Assembly: GCF_023541015.1 (NCBI RefSeq)
Contig: NZ_JALNPR010000001.1
Location: forward strand, 372,001 to 436,000
Length of the DNA: 64,000 nucleotides
Source: Marivivens donghaensis
Lineage (GTDB): Bacteria; Pseudomonadota; Alphaproteobacteria; Rhodobacterales; Rhodobacteraceae
Direction: 5' to 3'
The notes under the pieces are model-generated. The model did no database searches. It worked only from the letters and a program-made list of their open reading frames with translations, and was not told the origin of the DNA. Positions 4,309-16,594 of the stretch are shown here, piece by piece (position 1 is the first letter of the stretch; each line of letters begins with the position of its first letter). The position numbers and the translations under genes are program-made.

Positions 4309-5397
4309 TTACTTGTTCTGCGCTACAATGTATCCCACGCCTGCCGCGACAATCAGACCTATGATCGAAGCAAAGGCGATTTTCCAAGCAGAGTAGGGGC
4401 GTTCGCCCTGCACCTTGCCCGTCTGACCGTTCACCACAAACCGATAGGTTTTCCCGCGATATTTATAGGCTGCGAGCCAGACGGGCAGCAGGATGTGTTT
4501 GAAGGTGACATCGCTGATCGTGGTGTTGATGCTATGCACCTTCTGGCGATCGCCACCGATATCGAATTTGACATCCCGCAGGATCATCGCATCCATATAG
4601 GCGCGGGCTTCGGTGTAGCCGTCCTCAAGGCTGATCTGATAGCCCTCTGCGCGAAACCCTGCCAGGAAATCGGGCGAATAGGGCTGAAGCTCGGACAGGT
4701 TCCACGGCTGAAGCCCGTCGGTATAGCGTTTCGGCAGCGATTTAGAGGCAAGCACCAGCACATCGTCAAAGAACCGCGCCACGCGCCCAGAGGCACGCCG
4801 CCATTTGGTGTGGCGCTGACGCACGGTCTGGGATTTCCCGTTCCGAACGACGCGATGGGTGGTATAATAATCGTCACCCCGTTCGCCTGTGTAGCTCGAC
4901 TTTGTATCCGCGTCATAGGTCCAGTATGGGACGTAGATGCCGTTGAGCTTGCGGCCCTTGCGGGCATATTCCTGCAATCCGTTCGGCGCAAACCACAACT
5001 GGCCCAACCATTTCGTCATCGCATCGCGCGCTTGCTTTTCATCGAGCCCGAACGGCAACAACGCCTTGGGTTTGATGTGACGATGGGTGCCCGTGTCCGT
5101 CACCACAGGCGTCGCACAGAACGGGCATTCAACAGCGTGATCTTTTTCGTGAATTTCCACCTGCGCCCCGCAGTTGGGGCAGGTGCTAACACGGGTTTCT
5201 TCGATTTCAGCTTGGGGGAGTTGATGGCGGATCGCCTGTTCAAAATCCAACTCTTTTATCGCCGTCCCCGCATAGTCGCCCTTTTCCACTGCCTCGCTAT
5301 GCCCACAAAAATCGCAGACCAATTTGTTCTGAACTGGGTCAAACCGCAGGTCAGCGCCGCATTGTTCGCAGGGAAAACGGTGTTCTTGAACAGTCAT
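4309..5397 (-). CDS. Zinc-ribbon membrane protein (YdjG-like)
   Basis: Last gene of a six-gene minus-strand run. The 362-residue protein opens with two zinc ribbons: Cys10/Cys13 with Cys28/Cys31, and Cys73/Cys76 with Cys91/Cys94. A long soluble region follows, with YVPYWTYDA and LLPVWLAAYKYRGK, then one C-terminal membrane span near 337-358 (WKIAFASIIGLIVAAGVGYI). This is the layout of TFIIB-type zinc-ribbon proteins such as Bacillus subtilis YdjG, which helps PspA and YdjI at stressed membranes. The start at 5397 has AAGGA six bases upstream. A longer frame to 5472 lacks such support. Molecular role is unknown. The tie to the SPFH gene upstream is the main clue. Confidence 0.75.
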   Translation of the reverse strand: MTVQEHRFPCEQCGADLRFDPVQNKLVCDFCGHSEAVEKGDYAGTAIKELDFEQAIRHQLPQAEIEETRVSTCPNCGAQVEIHEKDHAVECPFCATPVVTDTGTHRHIKPKALLPFGLDEKQARDAMTKWLGQLWFAPNGLQEYARKGRKLNGIYVPYWTYDADTKSSYTGERGDDYYTTHRVVRNGKSQTVRQRHTKWRRASGRVARFFDDVLVLASKSLPKRYTDGLQPWNLSELQPYSPDFLAGFRAEGYQISLEDGYTEARAYMDAMILRDVKFDIGGDRQKVHSINTTISDVTFKHILLPVWLAAYKYRGKTYRFVVNGQTGKVQGERPYSAWKIAFASIIGLIVAAGVGYIVAQNK

Positions 5398-5504
5398 TCG
5401 AAATCCTTGGGCTGTTCTGCCACGAGCGCGATGGAAAAGGAGGAACGAGTCCGCCTCTGAGTGTGAAACCAAAGACGGACGCAGCCTGTGCTAGGGTTCA
5501 GTGA

Positions 5505-6614
5505 TTACGGCAGCGGCGGCGGGGGCGGTGCGACGGTGAACAAAAGTGCGAGCTCTGTATCGCCCGCAGGTTTCCAGCCGTCCTGACCAGCGGTCCAGAC
5601 CAGTGTTTCGCGAGTCAGTGCGCCGTCACCAGCCATGCGGCCCAGCGATGCCTTTGAAAACGGGCCTTTGGTTTCGCCTTTGTCCGCGATGTGCCAGACC
5701 TTTTCGACGGGTGGCGGCGGAGGCGCAACAGGGGCGACCTGCGGTGCAGTTTGTGGAACAGCGCCCCACGGACCTGTCATCGCCTGACCCATGGCCATGC
5801 CCATACCAGCGCCCATACCCGTTGCCATAGCCGAACCAGCACCAGAGGTTGGATTGCCCATCGCCTCTGCTGCGCGCCATTTCATGTGGTCGTCCAGATT
5901 ACCAGCGATCCCACGGCTCGTGCGGGCATCGAGCGCTGCCTCTACCGCCTCTGGCAGGCTGATGTTTTCAATGTAGAACTCTGGGATTTCTAGACCATAG
6001 GCCGCGATGGTTGGTGCGATGGCCTTGTTCACCAAGGCCGCGACATCGGCGGTGTTGGCGGCCATATCCAGAACAGGGATCCCCGACGATGCGATCGCAC
6101 GGCTGAACTCTTGGACAATGATGTTGCGGATTTGGAAGCTGATCTCATCCATGGTGAATTCGCCGTCGGTGCCGACGATTTCGGTCATGAATTTCGCAGG
6201 ATCAGACACCTTGATCGTATAGGTGCCAAAGGCGCGAATGCGGGTCGGGCCGAATTCAGGGTCGCGCAGCATGATCGGGTTCTTCGTGCCCCATTTGAGG
6301 TCCGAAAAACGGGTGGTGTTGATGTAGTAAATCTCGCTCTTGAACGGGGATTTGAACCCGTGGTCCCAATGCTGGAGCGAGGTCATGATCGGCATGTTGT
6401 TCGTTTCAAGCATGTAGAGACCAGGCTGGAACACATCCGCCAGTTGCCCTTCATGAATGAACACCGCGGCCTGACCTTCGCGAACGGTCAGTTTCGCACC
6501 GTATTTGATTTCGTGGCCTTCACGTTCAAACCGCCAAACCATCGTGTCGCGGGTGTCGTCGGTCCAATGAATAACGTCGATGAATTGACCGGACAGAAAA
6601 TCCAAAATGCCCAT
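5505..6614 (-). CDS. SPFH-domain protein with C-terminal GYF_2 domain (YdjI-like)
   Basis: The 369-residue protein has three parts. Residues 1 to about 240 are an SPFH domain of the virion-core/YdjI type, with DVIHWTDDTRDTMVW, VREGQAAVFIHEGQ and DLKWGTKNPI. About 255-300 is Gly/Met/Ala- and Pro-rich linker. About 303-360 is a GYF_2 domain (WHIADKGETKGPF, VWTAGQDGWKPAG). SPFH proteins scaffold membrane microdomains. In B. subtilis YdjI is recruited to damaged membrane together with a zinc-ribbon partner and PspA. Here the zinc-ribbon gene follows directly, but no pspA is visible. GYF_2 is presumed to bind proteins or anchor to membranes. Confidence 0.82.
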   Translation of the reverse strand: MGILDFLSGQFIDVIHWTDDTRDTMVWRFEREGHEIKYGAKLTVREGQAAVFIHEGQLADVFQPGLYMLETNNMPIMTSLQHWDHGFKSPFKSEIYYINTTRFSDLKWGTKNPIMLRDPEFGPTRIRAFGTYTIKVSDPAKFMTEIVGTDGEFTMDEISFQIRNIIVQEFSRAIASSGIPVLDMAANTADVAALVNKAIAPTIAAYGLEIPEFYIENISLPEAVEAALDARTSRGIAGNLDDHMKWRAAEAMGNPTSGAGSAMATGMGAGMGMAMGQAMTGPWGAVPQTAPQVAPVAPPPPPVEKVWHIADKGETKGPFSKASLGRMAGDGALTRETLVWTAGQDGWKPAGDTELALLFTVAPPPPPLP

Positions 6615-6630
6615 AAGAGGCTCCTTTCAA

Positions 6631-7578
6631 TTACACAGGTCCGCCGACCAGCTCTGCTGCGATCTGGCGGACGATGGGTGTGGCCTCGGCTTCGGTCATG
6701 CCAGTGCTGAGGCGCGGATCGTAAAGTATCTTCAATAAAAGTTCGTCGTGTCGGGTGAGCAGCGCGAATTCGTCGTCATCATTGAAAATCGACGGGCGCG
6801 CACGCGGGCTATCGTTGGCAAGGCCAAGCCCCTGCGACAGTTCCTCGTGATAGCATGACTGTCGCATCAATTCAGGATGTTCGGCGCGAATGATCGCAAC
6901 CGCGCTTTGGTAGGTGTGGCCGTCGGGTTTGAAGGTGCCAATCACGACGCATAACTGATCGCGTGGCAGGTTCACCGCATAGCGCAGCGAACTGTCGTCG
7001 ATCGACGGGATCAAGCTGCGGATCAGGGGACCCGCCGCGAGTCGGTCATCTTCGTTCAGGATCAGGACGTGGAAATTGCCGCCGTTGCTGACTTGATTGA
7101 TGCGTAGGCCCGTGATGGAGGCCAGCCGCGATGCAAAGGACGCGATATAACGACGGTCGGACGCGATGATGTCAGACGGCACGTTTGCGCCAAACTGCAC
7201 GTTCATCTGGATCGGTTGATCCCAGCGCCGCAGGGCCGACGACGTGGCACGTGCCCGAAGCGAGCCGCCACTGGTCGTGTATTCATCAAACAGCGCAATG
7301 CGGATGAAATTCGCGGTCAGTTGTGTGTCGGTAAAGGGCGCGTCAACGTGCCCGTCATCCGTCCGCATCAACCCTTGGGCCAGCGCATTTCGTTCGAGGC
7401 GCTGATAGTAGAGCGACAACAGTTGGCTCTGCTGCGATGGGCCGTCCAACTCCGCCTCTGGCGAAGGGGCTACGGGTTCAGGCGGTGCAATTGTCGGAGG
7501 TGGGGACGGCATGTCCACACATGCAGCGAGCATAAGCCCAGCCGCTGCCATAGAAAATCGCCGTCCCCATCCGTTCAT
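6631..7578 (-). CDS. DUF2927-family lipoprotein
   Basis: A 315-residue protein with a type II signal ending in LMLAAC (Cys20), then a Pro-rich linker and a DUF2927 domain. The domain includes NFIRIALFDEY, a basic strand and SCYHEELSQGLGLANDSP. The HEE-containing helix resembles a metal-binding motif, but I would not call it a protease on this alone. The start abuts the telA stop (TAA 7579-7581) with no gap, indicating coupling. It is probably anchored in a periplasm-facing membrane, giving this stress cluster an envelope component. Confidence 0.8.
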   Translation of the reverse strand: MNGWGRRFSMAAAGLMLAACVDMPSPPPTIAPPEPVAPSPEAELDGPSQQSQLLSLYYQRLERNALAQGLMRTDDGHVDAPFTDTQLTANFIRIALFDEYTTSGGSLRARATSSALRRWDQPIQMNVQFGANVPSDIIASDRRYIASFASRLASITGLRINQVSNGGNFHVLILNEDDRLAAGPLIRSLIPSIDDSSLRYAVNLPRDQLCVVIGTFKPDGHTYQSAVAIIRAEHPELMRQSCYHEELSQGLGLANDSPRARPSIFNDDDEFALLTRHDELLLKILYDPRLSTGMTEAEATPIVRQIAAELVGGPV

Positions 7579-8769
7579 TTATGCGCCTGTCGAAGTGCCG
7601 ATGTTATACCCAGTAGCATTGCCGCGTGCCTTGGCGCTGGCAAGGGTCTCTTTGAGTTCGGACTCCATACGCTGCAGTTCAACCTCTGCTTCGGCACGTT
7701 TACGCTTGCCTTCGTCGGCAATCTCGAGGCTTTCGTTGATTGTCGCGATAAGGGTTGCGTTGGCCTTTTTGACCGCTTCGATATCGAACACGCCGCGTTC
7801 CATTTCTTCTCGAACGACTTTGTTCGCTTGACGCAGGTTGTCGGCGTTTGCGGTCAAAAGTTCGTTGGTCAGATCGTTTGCCTCGCGCACGGCCTTGGCC
7901 GCTTCGGCAGAGCGTTGGATGGTGACAGCCTGCGCCAATTGGGTTTCCCAGAGCGGCACGGTGTTCACGAGAGTCGAATTGATCTTTGTCACCAGCGATT
8001 TGTCGTTTTCCTGAACCAGACGGATCGACGGAAGCGACTGCATCGTGACCTGACGGGTGAGTTTCAGGTCGTGCACACGGCGTTCCAGATCGTCGCGGGC
8101 AGAGCGCAGGTCGCGGAGTTCTTGGGCGACCATAACGCCGTCACCTTCGGGGGCTGCGGCAACTTCGGCTTCTTTGGCGGGAATGGTATCCTCGTCCAGT
8201 TCTTTCAGCTTTGCCTCGCCCGCAGAGATATAGAGCGCGAGTTCGTCGTAGAAGGTCAGCGTACGCTCGTAGAGCACATCAAGGCTTTCGATGTCCTTGA
8301 GCAGGGTATGTTCGTGCATCAACAGATCATCGGTGATCTTGTCGATCTGGCCCTGCACGGTTTCAAAACGAGCCGCGAATTTCGCCATCGGCGCGGCGCG
8401 GCCCAGCAGTTTTTCCCAGAAGGTGCGTTCGCGGCGCACATCCAGTTCAGAGACCGAGAACCCACGGATCGTGGTCACGATGTTGCGCAGGCTGTCACCT
8501 GCGGGGCCAACGTCCTTGTTACGGACGCCTTGTAGCATCGACTGCGAGATTTCTTGCAATTCCGCCTGAGCGGACGAACCAAAGCGCACGATGGAGTTGG
8601 TATCGCTCATATCCAGTTCGGAAATGCGTTTGGTGATTTCCGCGCTGATGGTCGCGTCCGCCTGATCCAAGGCCACAATCTCTGTGCCCGGTTCTGCCAG
8701 AACAACGGCAGTTACTTTTTCAACATTGGCCAAGCTGGCCTCGGCTTTGGTGCGAATATCTTGGGACAT
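7579..8769 (-). CDS. telA: TelA/KlaA family toxic-anion resistance protein
   Basis: A 396-residue, mostly helical soluble protein of the TelA family, linked to tellurite and other toxic-anion or envelope stress tolerance. Visible features include the FSVSELDVRRERTFWEKLLG segment, a long charged coiled-coil middle, and the conserved LTRQVTMQSLPSIRLVQ with KINSTLVNTVPLWETQLA. The start at 8769 has GGAGAA five bases upstream. The XpaC-like gene ends 26 bp upstream. TelA and XpaC genes are recurrent neighbours in bacteria. The biochemical activity of TelA is not known. Confidence 0.9.
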   Translation of the reverse strand: MSQDIRTKAEASLANVEKVTAVVLAEPGTEIVALDQADATISAEITKRISELDMSDTNSIVRFGSSAQAELQEISQSMLQGVRNKDVGPAGDSLRNIVTTIRGFSVSELDVRRERTFWEKLLGRAAPMAKFAARFETVQGQIDKITDDLLMHEHTLLKDIESLDVLYERTLTFYDELALYISAGEAKLKELDEDTIPAKEAEVAAAPEGDGVMVAQELRDLRSARDDLERRVHDLKLTRQVTMQSLPSIRLVQENDKSLVTKINSTLVNTVPLWETQLAQAVTIQRSAEAAKAVREANDLTNELLTANADNLRQANKVVREEMERGVFDIEAVKKANATLIATINESLEIADEGKRKRAEAEVELQRMESELKETLASAKARGNATGYNIGTSTGA

Positions 8770-8795
8770 AATGGTTCTCCGTCACATTGACTTTA

Positions 8796-9674
8796 TTAAA
8801 GCGGCTTTACGCCTTCGCGTTGCAGTCTGTCGCGCAACACTTTGATTTCAATATCCATATCGCTGCGATCGTCGGTCAGCATCTTGTCGGTGCGAGCCGC
8901 AAAATTCTGTTCGAGGTCGATGAGCAACTGTTCGTAATCTGCGCGGGCGCTCTGATCGCCCGTTCTCTTGTAAAGGTCTGCAAACTTGGCCGAAGCATCG
9001 CGTGCTCCCATCAGATAGACGCCCAGATATTTGCGGGCACCTGTGAGGTCGCGGGGGTCTTCTTCGACGGTGCGGATCATGCGGCGGGCGATAGATTGGA
9101 ATGTCGCAATCCGACCGTCCAAGGCACGATCCTTAAGCGTGGAAATGTGGTCAGCCATCGCGGCGAGGTAATCTTCGGCGTCATCTACGACACGGGCGAC
9201 GCGATCCTGCTGGAAGTCATCAATGCCTTCCATACGTTTGTTTTTAAGCGGATCGAGGCCAAAAGCGACGAGGTAGAGCGCTGTCGCCACGATCCCAAAG
9301 GCAGGTGCGGCCAGGACAGGCGATCCGCTGCGGATCGACGCCAAGGCCACCGCGACCCCGATCAGAACCGACCCGATAATTTTACGAGGTAGAGCAGGGC
9401 GGCGGGCAATGGCGCGGGCGTTATAAGCGGCCTCCGCGCGGAGCCCTTCACGGGTGAGCCACGCGCCGAGCAACATGAGAGCGGCAGCCGAGAGGCCTAC
9501 GATCATCAAGGTCGCCCCTTCGCGGATCGACACAAAACCGAGCATGGCCGCAGGGATAAAGAGAACATTCGCACGCGCACCCGCCGCGTCTTTGACCCGA
9601 TGATCAGGGGCTGCGGGGGCAGAGGGGGACTGTTGCGATTGTGGGCTGTTTTTGCCGCCGTATTTCTGCGCCAT
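8796..9674 (-). CDS. XpaC-like membrane protein (5-bromo-4-chloroindolyl phosphate hydrolysis family)
   Basis: A 292-residue protein with a polar Gln/Ser/Ala-rich N terminus, two hydrophobic hairpins at roughly 40-80 and 98-140, and a cytosolic helical domain of about 150 residues (DDFQQDRVARVVDDAEDY and on). This matches the XpaC family, named for an indicator-hydrolysis phenotype and usually found beside telA. The ATG at 9674 is chosen because GGAGG lies six bases upstream. It overlaps the stop of a 28-residue membrane peptide gene as TGATG. The real function is unknown. Confidence 0.82.
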   Translation of the reverse strand: MAQKYGGKNSPQSQQSPSAPAAPDHRVKDAAGARANVLFIPAAMLGFVSIREGATLMIVGLSAAALMLLGAWLTREGLRAEAAYNARAIARRPALPRKIIGSVLIGVAVALASIRSGSPVLAAPAFGIVATALYLVAFGLDPLKNKRMEGIDDFQQDRVARVVDDAEDYLAAMADHISTLKDRALDGRIATFQSIARRMIRTVEEDPRDLTGARKYLGVYLMGARDASAKFADLYKRTGDQSARADYEQLLIDLEQNFAARTDKMLTDDRSDMDIEIKVLRDRLQREGVKPL

Positions 9675-9760
9675 CACAGACCTCCGATCCAGCCAAAGGT
9701 TGTGCCGAAGAGCAGCATGATCAAAAGCGCGAACGCGATGTTCTTAACAGATTTGGGCAT
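9674..9760 (-). CDS. 28-residue single-span membrane peptide
   Basis: A short frame starts at 9760 with a good ribosome site (GGAAGG five bases upstream) and ends at TGA 9674-9676, sharing a base with the XpaC-like ATG. The peptide starts MPKSVKN, has a hydrophobic core of about 16 residues (IAFALLIMLLFGTTFG) and ends WIGGL: a short basic cytosolic end and one membrane helix. The ribosome site, the span and the TGATG coupling to a membrane gene argue that it is a true first gene of the operon. No family recognised. Confidence 0.65.
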   Translation of the reverse strand: MPKSVKNIAFALLIMLLFGTTFGWIGGL

Positions 9761-9893
9761 CAAAACCTTCCACACGTAATCAGGAGGTTTAGCCCCTTAA
9801 CGCAACATCCGCATGACGCTGCGCCTGTGGTAGCCCCCAAGTTCCCAATACGTAACATGGACCCTGCAACTGTCGGTAGCAAGGCCTTGAATG

Positions 9894-16191: not shown

Positions 16192-16563
16192 CGCGCGGAT
16201 GGCTGGATGACCGCGGGCCTTTGGGTCCGAGGAAAGTCCGGACACCAGAAGGCACGGTGCCGGGTAACGCCCGGCGGGGGTAACCCCAGGGAAAGCGCCA
16301 CAGAGAACAGACTACCCTGCATGCAGGGAAAAGGTGAAACGGTGGGGTAAGAGCCCACCGCGGGACTGGCAACAGGACCGGCACGGCAAGCCCCACCGGG
16401 TGCAATGCCAAATAGGGACCTCGCGCCTCTTATGGGGCAGGGACGCCTAACCCCGAGAGGTCCGGGTTGGCAGCTAGAGGCGGTCTGGTAACAGATCGTC
16501 TAGATGAATGGTCATCCAGAGGGGAAACCCTTGGACAAAATCCGGCTTATAGGCCGTCCGCGC
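16192..16563 (+). ncRNA. rnpB: RNase P RNA, type A
   Basis: Catalytic RNA of RNase P, which trims tRNA 5' ends. Hallmarks are GAGGAAAGTCCGGAC at 16229-16243, ACAGAGAACAGACTACC at 16300-16316, the AGGTGAAACGGTGGG region near 16332 and the 3' stretch GGACAAAATCCGGCTTA. The ends are set by the P1 helix: GCGCGGATGGC at 16193-16203 pairs with GCCGTCCGCGC at 16553-16563, with one G-U pair. The length of about 372 nt is normal. Ends are good to a few bases. I saw no strong terminator just after it. Confidence 0.93.
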
Positions 16564-16594
16564 ATAATCTTTACGTTTCCCATTACAATTGCGG

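Follow-up and report, generated by a model that had tools for sequence, protein, structure and literature searches.

Two envelope-stress operons of Bacillus subtilis, xpaC-yaaN, in which yaaN encodes a TelA protein, and pspA-ydjG-ydjH-ydjI, belong to the sigma-W regulon (PMC3498285). In the second of them, YdjI together with YdjG/H is needed for the placement of PspA at the membrane, and the loss of YdjI lowers membrane fluidity (PMC8581546). TelA has been proposed to form sub-membrane structures (PMC7824862), and a Listeria mutant in the corresponding gene, lmo1967, is 4-fold more sensitive to nisin and 2-fold more sensitive to tellurite (PMC12791056). In Rhodobacter sphaeroides, according to a review citing O'Gara 1997, chromosomal telA counts among the determinants of tellurite resistance (PMC6955997). 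The locus described here, from a 64,000-nucleotide stretch of Marivivens donghaensis DNA (the window), unites in a new combination the two stress pairs, XpaC-TelA and YdjG/YdjI, that Bacillus holds in those two separate operons. It is read, with moderate confidence, as a single conserved operon that would encode an envelope-stress module independent of PspA, with TelA standing in the place of PspA as the sub-membrane partner of an SPFH protein and a zinc-ribbon protein.

Gene content and conservation in Rhodobacteraceae

The initial annotation had placed six tightly packed genes on the minus strand at 4309-9760, and the calls of open reading frames (ORFs) found all six there in one direction, transcribed in the order micropeptide, XpaC, TelA, DUF2927 lipoprotein, SPFH protein and zinc-ribbon protein. 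The stop codon of the micropeptide overlaps the ATG of XpaC by one base (TGATG), and the subsequent gaps measure 26 nt before TelA, 0 before the lipoprotein, 16 before the SPFH gene and 107 before the zinc-ribbon gene, the last being the loosest joint in the operon. All family assignments of that annotation were upheld, by Pfam for XpaC (PF10112, E = 2e-25), TelA (PF05816, 1e-107), the lipoprotein (DUF2927/PF11150, 2e-59) and the SPFH protein (PF13421, 2e-99, plus GYF_2/PF14237, 3e-19), and by cysteine and profile evidence for the zinc-ribbon protein. The PF10112 gene lies immediately upstream of the PF05816 gene, both above the Pfam cut-off, forming an XpaC-TelA pair. Two starts needed small corrections: that of XpaC is ATG 9674, and that of the zinc-ribbon protein is probably ATG 5397.

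Conservation was assessed in 61 genomes of the Rhodobacteraceae, a family of marine and soil bacteria, drawn evenly with one per genus, of which 54 contain TelA. A total of 51 loci, each from a different genus, was compared, these being the surroundings of 50 of the 54 TelA genomes and of one further genome. XpaC-TelA-DUF2927-SPFH-zinc-ribbon was found on one strand and in the same order in 46 of the 51, with a median intergenic spacing of 20-80 nt, and one of the five other loci (L034) reaches a contig end; TelA, SPFH and zinc-ribbon genes stand together in 47 or 48, depending on whether L034 is counted as cut. Since five large genes keep both order and strand in 46 loci, their adjacency is not due to chance, and the proposal of the initial annotation, which depended on these genes being neighbours in related genomes, withstood the comparison. 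Variants of the arrangement were also observed. A cytochrome b561 gene is inserted between the SPFH and zinc-ribbon genes in six loci (L039, L041, L044, L046, L048 and L054), confirmed as PF01292 in three and similar in appearance in the three others, and a DUF4241 gene lies between the lipoprotein and SPFH genes in L045 (9983-10621), with similar proteins in L044 and L042. On Paracoccus megaplasmids the order is TelA-DUF2927-SPFH-zinc-ribbon-pfkB, and no XpaC could be recognised there.

The presence of TelA and that of the SPFH protein are closely coupled. In fact, the 54 genomes with a strong match to TelA are also those with a strong match to a YdjI-type SPFH protein, and the remaining seven have a strong match to neither (Fisher p = 2e-9 over the 61 genomes, before any phylogenetic correction). 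Furthermore, both proteins are kept in two genera where their genes are unlinked, being 37 kb apart in one (G018) and on separate contigs in the other (G004).

The lack of pspA, already noted in the initial annotation, extends beyond the operon: a PF04012 search found no PspA in the whole genome (2.84 Mb, 99.99% complete), the same search being positive in nine control genomes. Among the 61 genomes, PspA and the module occur together in 10, the module only in 44, PspA only in 1 and neither in 6; in G003, G049 and G055 both lie on one contig, more than 1.5 Mb apart. A genome-by-genome replacement of PspA by the module was rejected, as 10 of the 54 module genomes also have PspA, and TelA as a remote PspA homologue was rejected on the hhalign probability of 1.4%.

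Table 1. Features of the M. donghaensis locus and its flanks (window coordinates)
Feature	Position	Strand	Evidence or conservation
Micropeptide, 28 aa, single-span membrane, MPKSVKNIAFALLIMLLFGTTFGWIGGL	9674..9760	-	ORF reading; conserved equivalents in the family
XpaC-like membrane protein (PF10112), about three predicted spans	8796..9674	-	Pfam, hydropathy, in-order conservation
TelA, toxic anion resistance protein (PF05816)	7579..8769	-	Pfam; 54/61 family genomes
Lipoprotein (DUF2927) with a fold predicted to resemble matrixins and a degenerate zinc site, EELSQGLGLAND...SIFND	6631..7578	-	Pfam, conservation, AlphaFold2, Foldseek
SPFH/Band_7_1 protein with C-terminal GYF_2, YdjI family	5505..6614	-	Pfam; YdjI-type match in pspA-ydjGHI-type operon
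Two-zinc-ribbon protein, beta-rich cytosolic domain and C-terminal span, YdjG family	4309..5397	-	Invariant Cys, hydropathy, YdjG-type match
Probable promoter/operator region, rluB-like gene to micropeptide	9761..9893	-	TTCCCCCTAGCAAG and CCCTA-type box at this site in many genera
rluB-like pseudouridine synthase, upstream flank	10736-9894		Conserved in 39/51 loci
pfkB-family kinase, downstream flank	4240-3311		Conserved in 26/51 loci

The pfkB gene starts 68 nt past the zinc-ribbon gene and may be co-transcribed with the operon. Elsewhere in the window, a bacterial RNase P class A RNA is located at 16195-16565 on the plus strand (Rfam RF00010, 299 bits).

Relatives of the module in other bacteria

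The kinship of the zinc-ribbon and SPFH proteins with YdjG and YdjI, which the initial annotation had claimed, was borne out by profiles built from the family. These match a complete PspA - zinc-ribbon - TPM - SPFH operon of Clostridium sp. KNHs205 (L189), with E-values of 2e-5 for PspA, 1e-61 for the zinc-ribbon protein at the YdjG position and 4e-53 for the YdjI-type SPFH protein, an arrangement equal to that of B. subtilis pspA-ydjG-ydjH-ydjI; the third gene (5924-7018) was called TPM/YdjH-type by reading its sequence, a single-sequence TPM search not having reached it. The SPFH protein, which carries the complete Band_7_1 domain and is homologous to this operon's SPFH gene, therefore counts as YdjI-type, and the zinc-ribbon protein, with two ribbons, a middle domain, a C-terminal span and homology to the gene at the YdjG position, as YdjG-type. 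The locus shares with the B. subtilis operon these homologous proteins and a probable membrane-stress setting, but it is without PspA and TPM (YdjH) and adds XpaC, TelA, the DUF2927 lipoprotein and the micropeptide; at the SPFH C-terminus, moreover, GYF_2 is found here, but the YdjI-type protein of Clostridium has a zinc ribbon there. With no PF04012 gene in the operon and no TPM gene between its members, it falls outside the PspA-centred Psp (phage shock protein) systems.

TelA and XpaC form a separate pair elsewhere, as had been claimed from the outset. XpaC stands directly upstream of TelA, probably co-transcribed with it, both here and in B. subtilis and Listeria (lmo1966-lmo1967), but the pair of the Bacillota occurs alone or with TPM/LemA genes, whereas in the present locus SPFH and zinc-ribbon genes accompany it. 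In Clostridium sp. KNHs205, XpaC-TelA (L168) is located apart from the pspA-containing operon, and of 80 clostridial TelA loci, 41 have a TPM-domain (YdjH-type) gene after the pair, at least once with LemA between them. As the 80 loci were collected as the closest relatives of a single clostridial query rather than sampled evenly, and as TPM also appears in other contexts (LemA-TPM), the link of TelA with TPM is weaker than that with SPFH and zinc-ribbon proteins. The contexts described connect TelA-XpaC with two Ydj sets: in Alphaproteobacteria with SPFH plus zinc-ribbon, in Clostridia with TPM. Over 120 Bacillota genomes, a YdjI-type SPFH protein was found in 8 of the 13 with TelA and in 7 of the 107 others (uncorrected for phylogeny). 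A long N-terminal extension of XpaC (approximately 400-445 aa in total) was also observed in L168 (4635-5969) and in other Lachnospiraceae loci.

Among approximately 140 other alphaproteobacterial genomes, only five contain a true YdjI-type SPFH protein. Four of these, from four other families (L081-L084), carry XpaC-TelA-SPFH-zinc-ribbon without the lipoprotein and with flanks unlike those in Rhodobacteraceae, and the core of the module is therefore taken to be these four genes. The fifth (L085:3541-8705) groups an SPFH-SHOCT gene with a spermine synthase gene and two DUF4178 genes, TelA not being nearby, which is the PSP-type context described in PMC11237479. The PSP systems of that paper, with band-7, CesT/Tir, spermine synthase and DUF4178 components, resemble the locus in having an inner-face band-7 protein beside a lipoprotein or membrane partner; unlike it, they are centred on PspA, and neither TelA nor XpaC was found in PMC11237479. 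SPFH-zinc-ribbon pairs without TelA occur on Vibrio, Comamonas and Tsukamurella plasmids and in some Bacillota. Beside the Vibrio plasmid pair (L092:700-5096), divergent genes include those for TIR-domain and TRAFs-binding-domain proteins.

Comparison was also made with Ter systems (TelA with TerC/TerD/TerF; PMC7824862), where TelA is likewise a proposed sub-membrane component; the locus is not one of them since, besides TelA itself, the five large proteins match no Ter family in Pfam or NCBIfam, with no TerB, TerC, TerD or TerF among them. An anti-phage defence system was rejected, as the five large proteins are without a PADLOC match. In agreement with the initial annotation, which had called the system undescribed, no description of the combined operon (TelA, XpaC and SPFH) or of DUF2927 was found in the open literature, subscription papers lying outside the scope of the search.

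Individual components and the upstream region

The zinc-ribbon protein contains two CxxC...CxxC ribbons, all eight cysteines being invariant in 32 homologues, and a single C-terminal span at residues 336-362 according to hydropathy. To this, already outlined in the initial annotation, a cytosolic domain of approximately 230 aa has to be added. Its model, with a predicted local distance difference test (pLDDT) score of 88, shows very long beta strands between the ribbons and the span, and for the middle domain no relative was found in the PDB (Protein Data Bank), the best matches, with a query template-modelling (TM) score of at most 0.14, being meaningless. No membrane span was predicted in the SPFH protein by hydropathy.

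In 45 of the 51 family loci, a hydrophobic ORF of 22-33 aa equivalent to the micropeptide terminates at the start of XpaC, a count that leaves out a spurious-looking 46th script match (L036). The consensus is MsxxglqkxafxlLxxLxxxvxxgxlGGl, and the differences at the three codon positions (0.48/0.35/0.60) have the pattern of a protein-coding gene, which on sequence grounds makes the micropeptide a conserved putative coding gene. Its frame is also open as an ORF of 66-75 aa with two hydrophobic stretches in five genera (L035, L044, L049, L054 and L060). Upstream of the micropeptide, TTCCCCCTAGCAAG and a CCCTA-type box downstream of it are common to many genera. The exact TTCCCCCTAGCAAG occurs seven times in the 61 genomes, once each in G002, G005, G020, G025, G031, G038 and G044, and all seven copies are located upstream of the operon; in the window itself it was not found within one mismatch. 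The site may be a dedicated one in one clade, or it may reflect plain promoter inheritance. A known sigma-type promoter common to the upstream regions was rejected, none of the EcfG-, RpoE-, RpoH- or sigma-70-like types being enriched.

As regards the DUF2927 lipoprotein, the lipobox Cys20 is conserved in its homologues, and the AlphaFold2 model has a mean pLDDT of 90. When this model was submitted to Foldseek, the whole top of the list consisted of matrix metalloproteinase catalytic domains (probability up to 1.00; TM by target mostly 0.5-0.64; E approximately 1e-3 to 4e-2). A by-eye reading, with no printed structural alignment, placed EELSQGLGLAND at the position of the matrixin motif HExxHxxGLxH and SIFND at that of the Met-turn. 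On this reading other residues stand in for the zinc ligands and one glutamate is kept, E245, E246, Q249, G252, L253, N255 and D256 are conserved, and the HExxHxxGxxH zinc site of matrixin/metzincin peptidases is absent from the protein. A profile search with DUF2927 against PDB sequences gave nothing meaningful, so that the matrixin link is drawn from fold comparison and motif only. The favoured reading is that the lipoprotein is a degenerate relative, probably non-proteolytic, though it may bind another metal. A second, longer DUF2927 paralogue (frame of approximately 475 aa) is present elsewhere in most family genomes (e.g. G000:C5:53678-54277), strong DUF2927 matches exist in two TelA-less genomes, and one genus (L059) has no DUF2927 gene in the operon. 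The overall reading of the initial annotation thus stands for families, kinship, order and lack of PspA, while its core has been refined to XpaC-TelA-SPFH-zinc-ribbon, with the lipoprotein as a family-level addition, less tightly coupled to that core.

Proposed role and rival explanations

In the proposed mechanism, the zinc-ribbon single-span protein, XpaC and the micropeptide would constitute a membrane-embedded receptor, and on it the SPFH-GYF_2 protein would oligomerise into a platform on the cytosolic side. Soluble TelA would fill the place of Bacillus PspA, being recruited to the stressed membrane and limiting there ion leakage or the entry of toxic compounds, and the DUF2927 lipoprotein might serve as outer sensor or binding protein on a protease-like fold whose zinc site was probably lost. 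We infer in this way a joint complex, TelA as a recruited PspA-like client, and a stress function. A more far-reaching version, tentative and rather doubtful, would make TelA a second, PspA-unrelated sub-membrane effector on the YdjG/YdjI platform (YdjH/TPM in Clostridia), providing PspA-free Psp-like protection; the conserved micropeptide of 27-30 aa would then be an obligate subunit, and the lipoprotein, a dead metalloprotease, would act as periplasmic sensor.

Several observations weigh against a PspA-independent module with TelA in the position of PspA. The co-occurrence counts, both for TelA and SPFH in the family and in the Bacillota, carry no phylogenetic correction, and the TelA-less pairs described above mean that SPFH and zinc-ribbon proteins do not always need TelA. 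Furthermore, PspA and the module are neither associated nor mutually exclusive (Fisher p = 1; 10 genomes with both), and no sequence-profile similarity between TelA and PspA was detected at that hhalign probability of 1.4%; the PspA-like role of TelA would therefore be one of position only, not of kinship.

Other explanations have to be considered for the same genes. The SPFH protein could be the cage of an HflKC/prohibitin-like complex for membrane-protein quality control or assembly, with the zinc-ribbon protein as adaptor and TelA and XpaC as assembly factors, since SPFH proteins commonly serve as cages and chaperones, such roles have been proposed for the band-7 and TPM partners of PSP systems (PMC11237479), and cytochrome b561 genes are inserted in the operon of several genera. 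However, the conserved operon is without an FtsH-like protease, the SPFH protein is without a predicted span and its known relative YdjI works in stress response, so that this chaperone complex is judged unlikely. A dedicated tellurite/oxyanion resistance operon, in which TelA and XpaC would lower tellurite uptake or toxicity with the SPFH and zinc-ribbon proteins as accessories, appears quite unlikely, even though the Rhodobacter sphaeroides telA, of the same family, is described as a tellurite-resistance locus (PMC6955997). Presence in nearly every genus, together with the lack of a reductase, methyltransferase or oxyanion pump in the core, fits better with a housekeeping stress role; the Listeria telA mutant is affected more by nisin than by tellurite (PMC12791056), and XpaC-yaaN is an envelope-stress operon under sigma-W in B. 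subtilis (PMC3498285).

It is far less credible, and largely refuted, that these are chance neighbours at an ancestral locus, kept by inheritance and not by joint function. Although the rluB-like and pfkB flanks are conserved too (Table 1), TelA and SPFH have been lost together in the same seven genera and kept together when unlinked, the same core is found in other families with different flanks, and TelA-XpaC independently joins a YdjH-type gene in Clostridia.

Returning to the envelope-stress module, the results suggest that the SPFH/zinc-ribbon platform is modular and able to serve partners besides PspA, and the micropeptide and the matrixin-like lipoprotein represent further unstudied parts. 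For decades TelA has carried a name taken from tellurite resistance, with no mechanism to go with it. The operon is worth experiments because TelA gains a testable partner; in fact, the near family-wide operon, the co-loss of TelA and SPFH in the sampled genera and the clostridial TelA-TPM link together offer a specific part for TelA in protecting the membrane, one that experiments can test.

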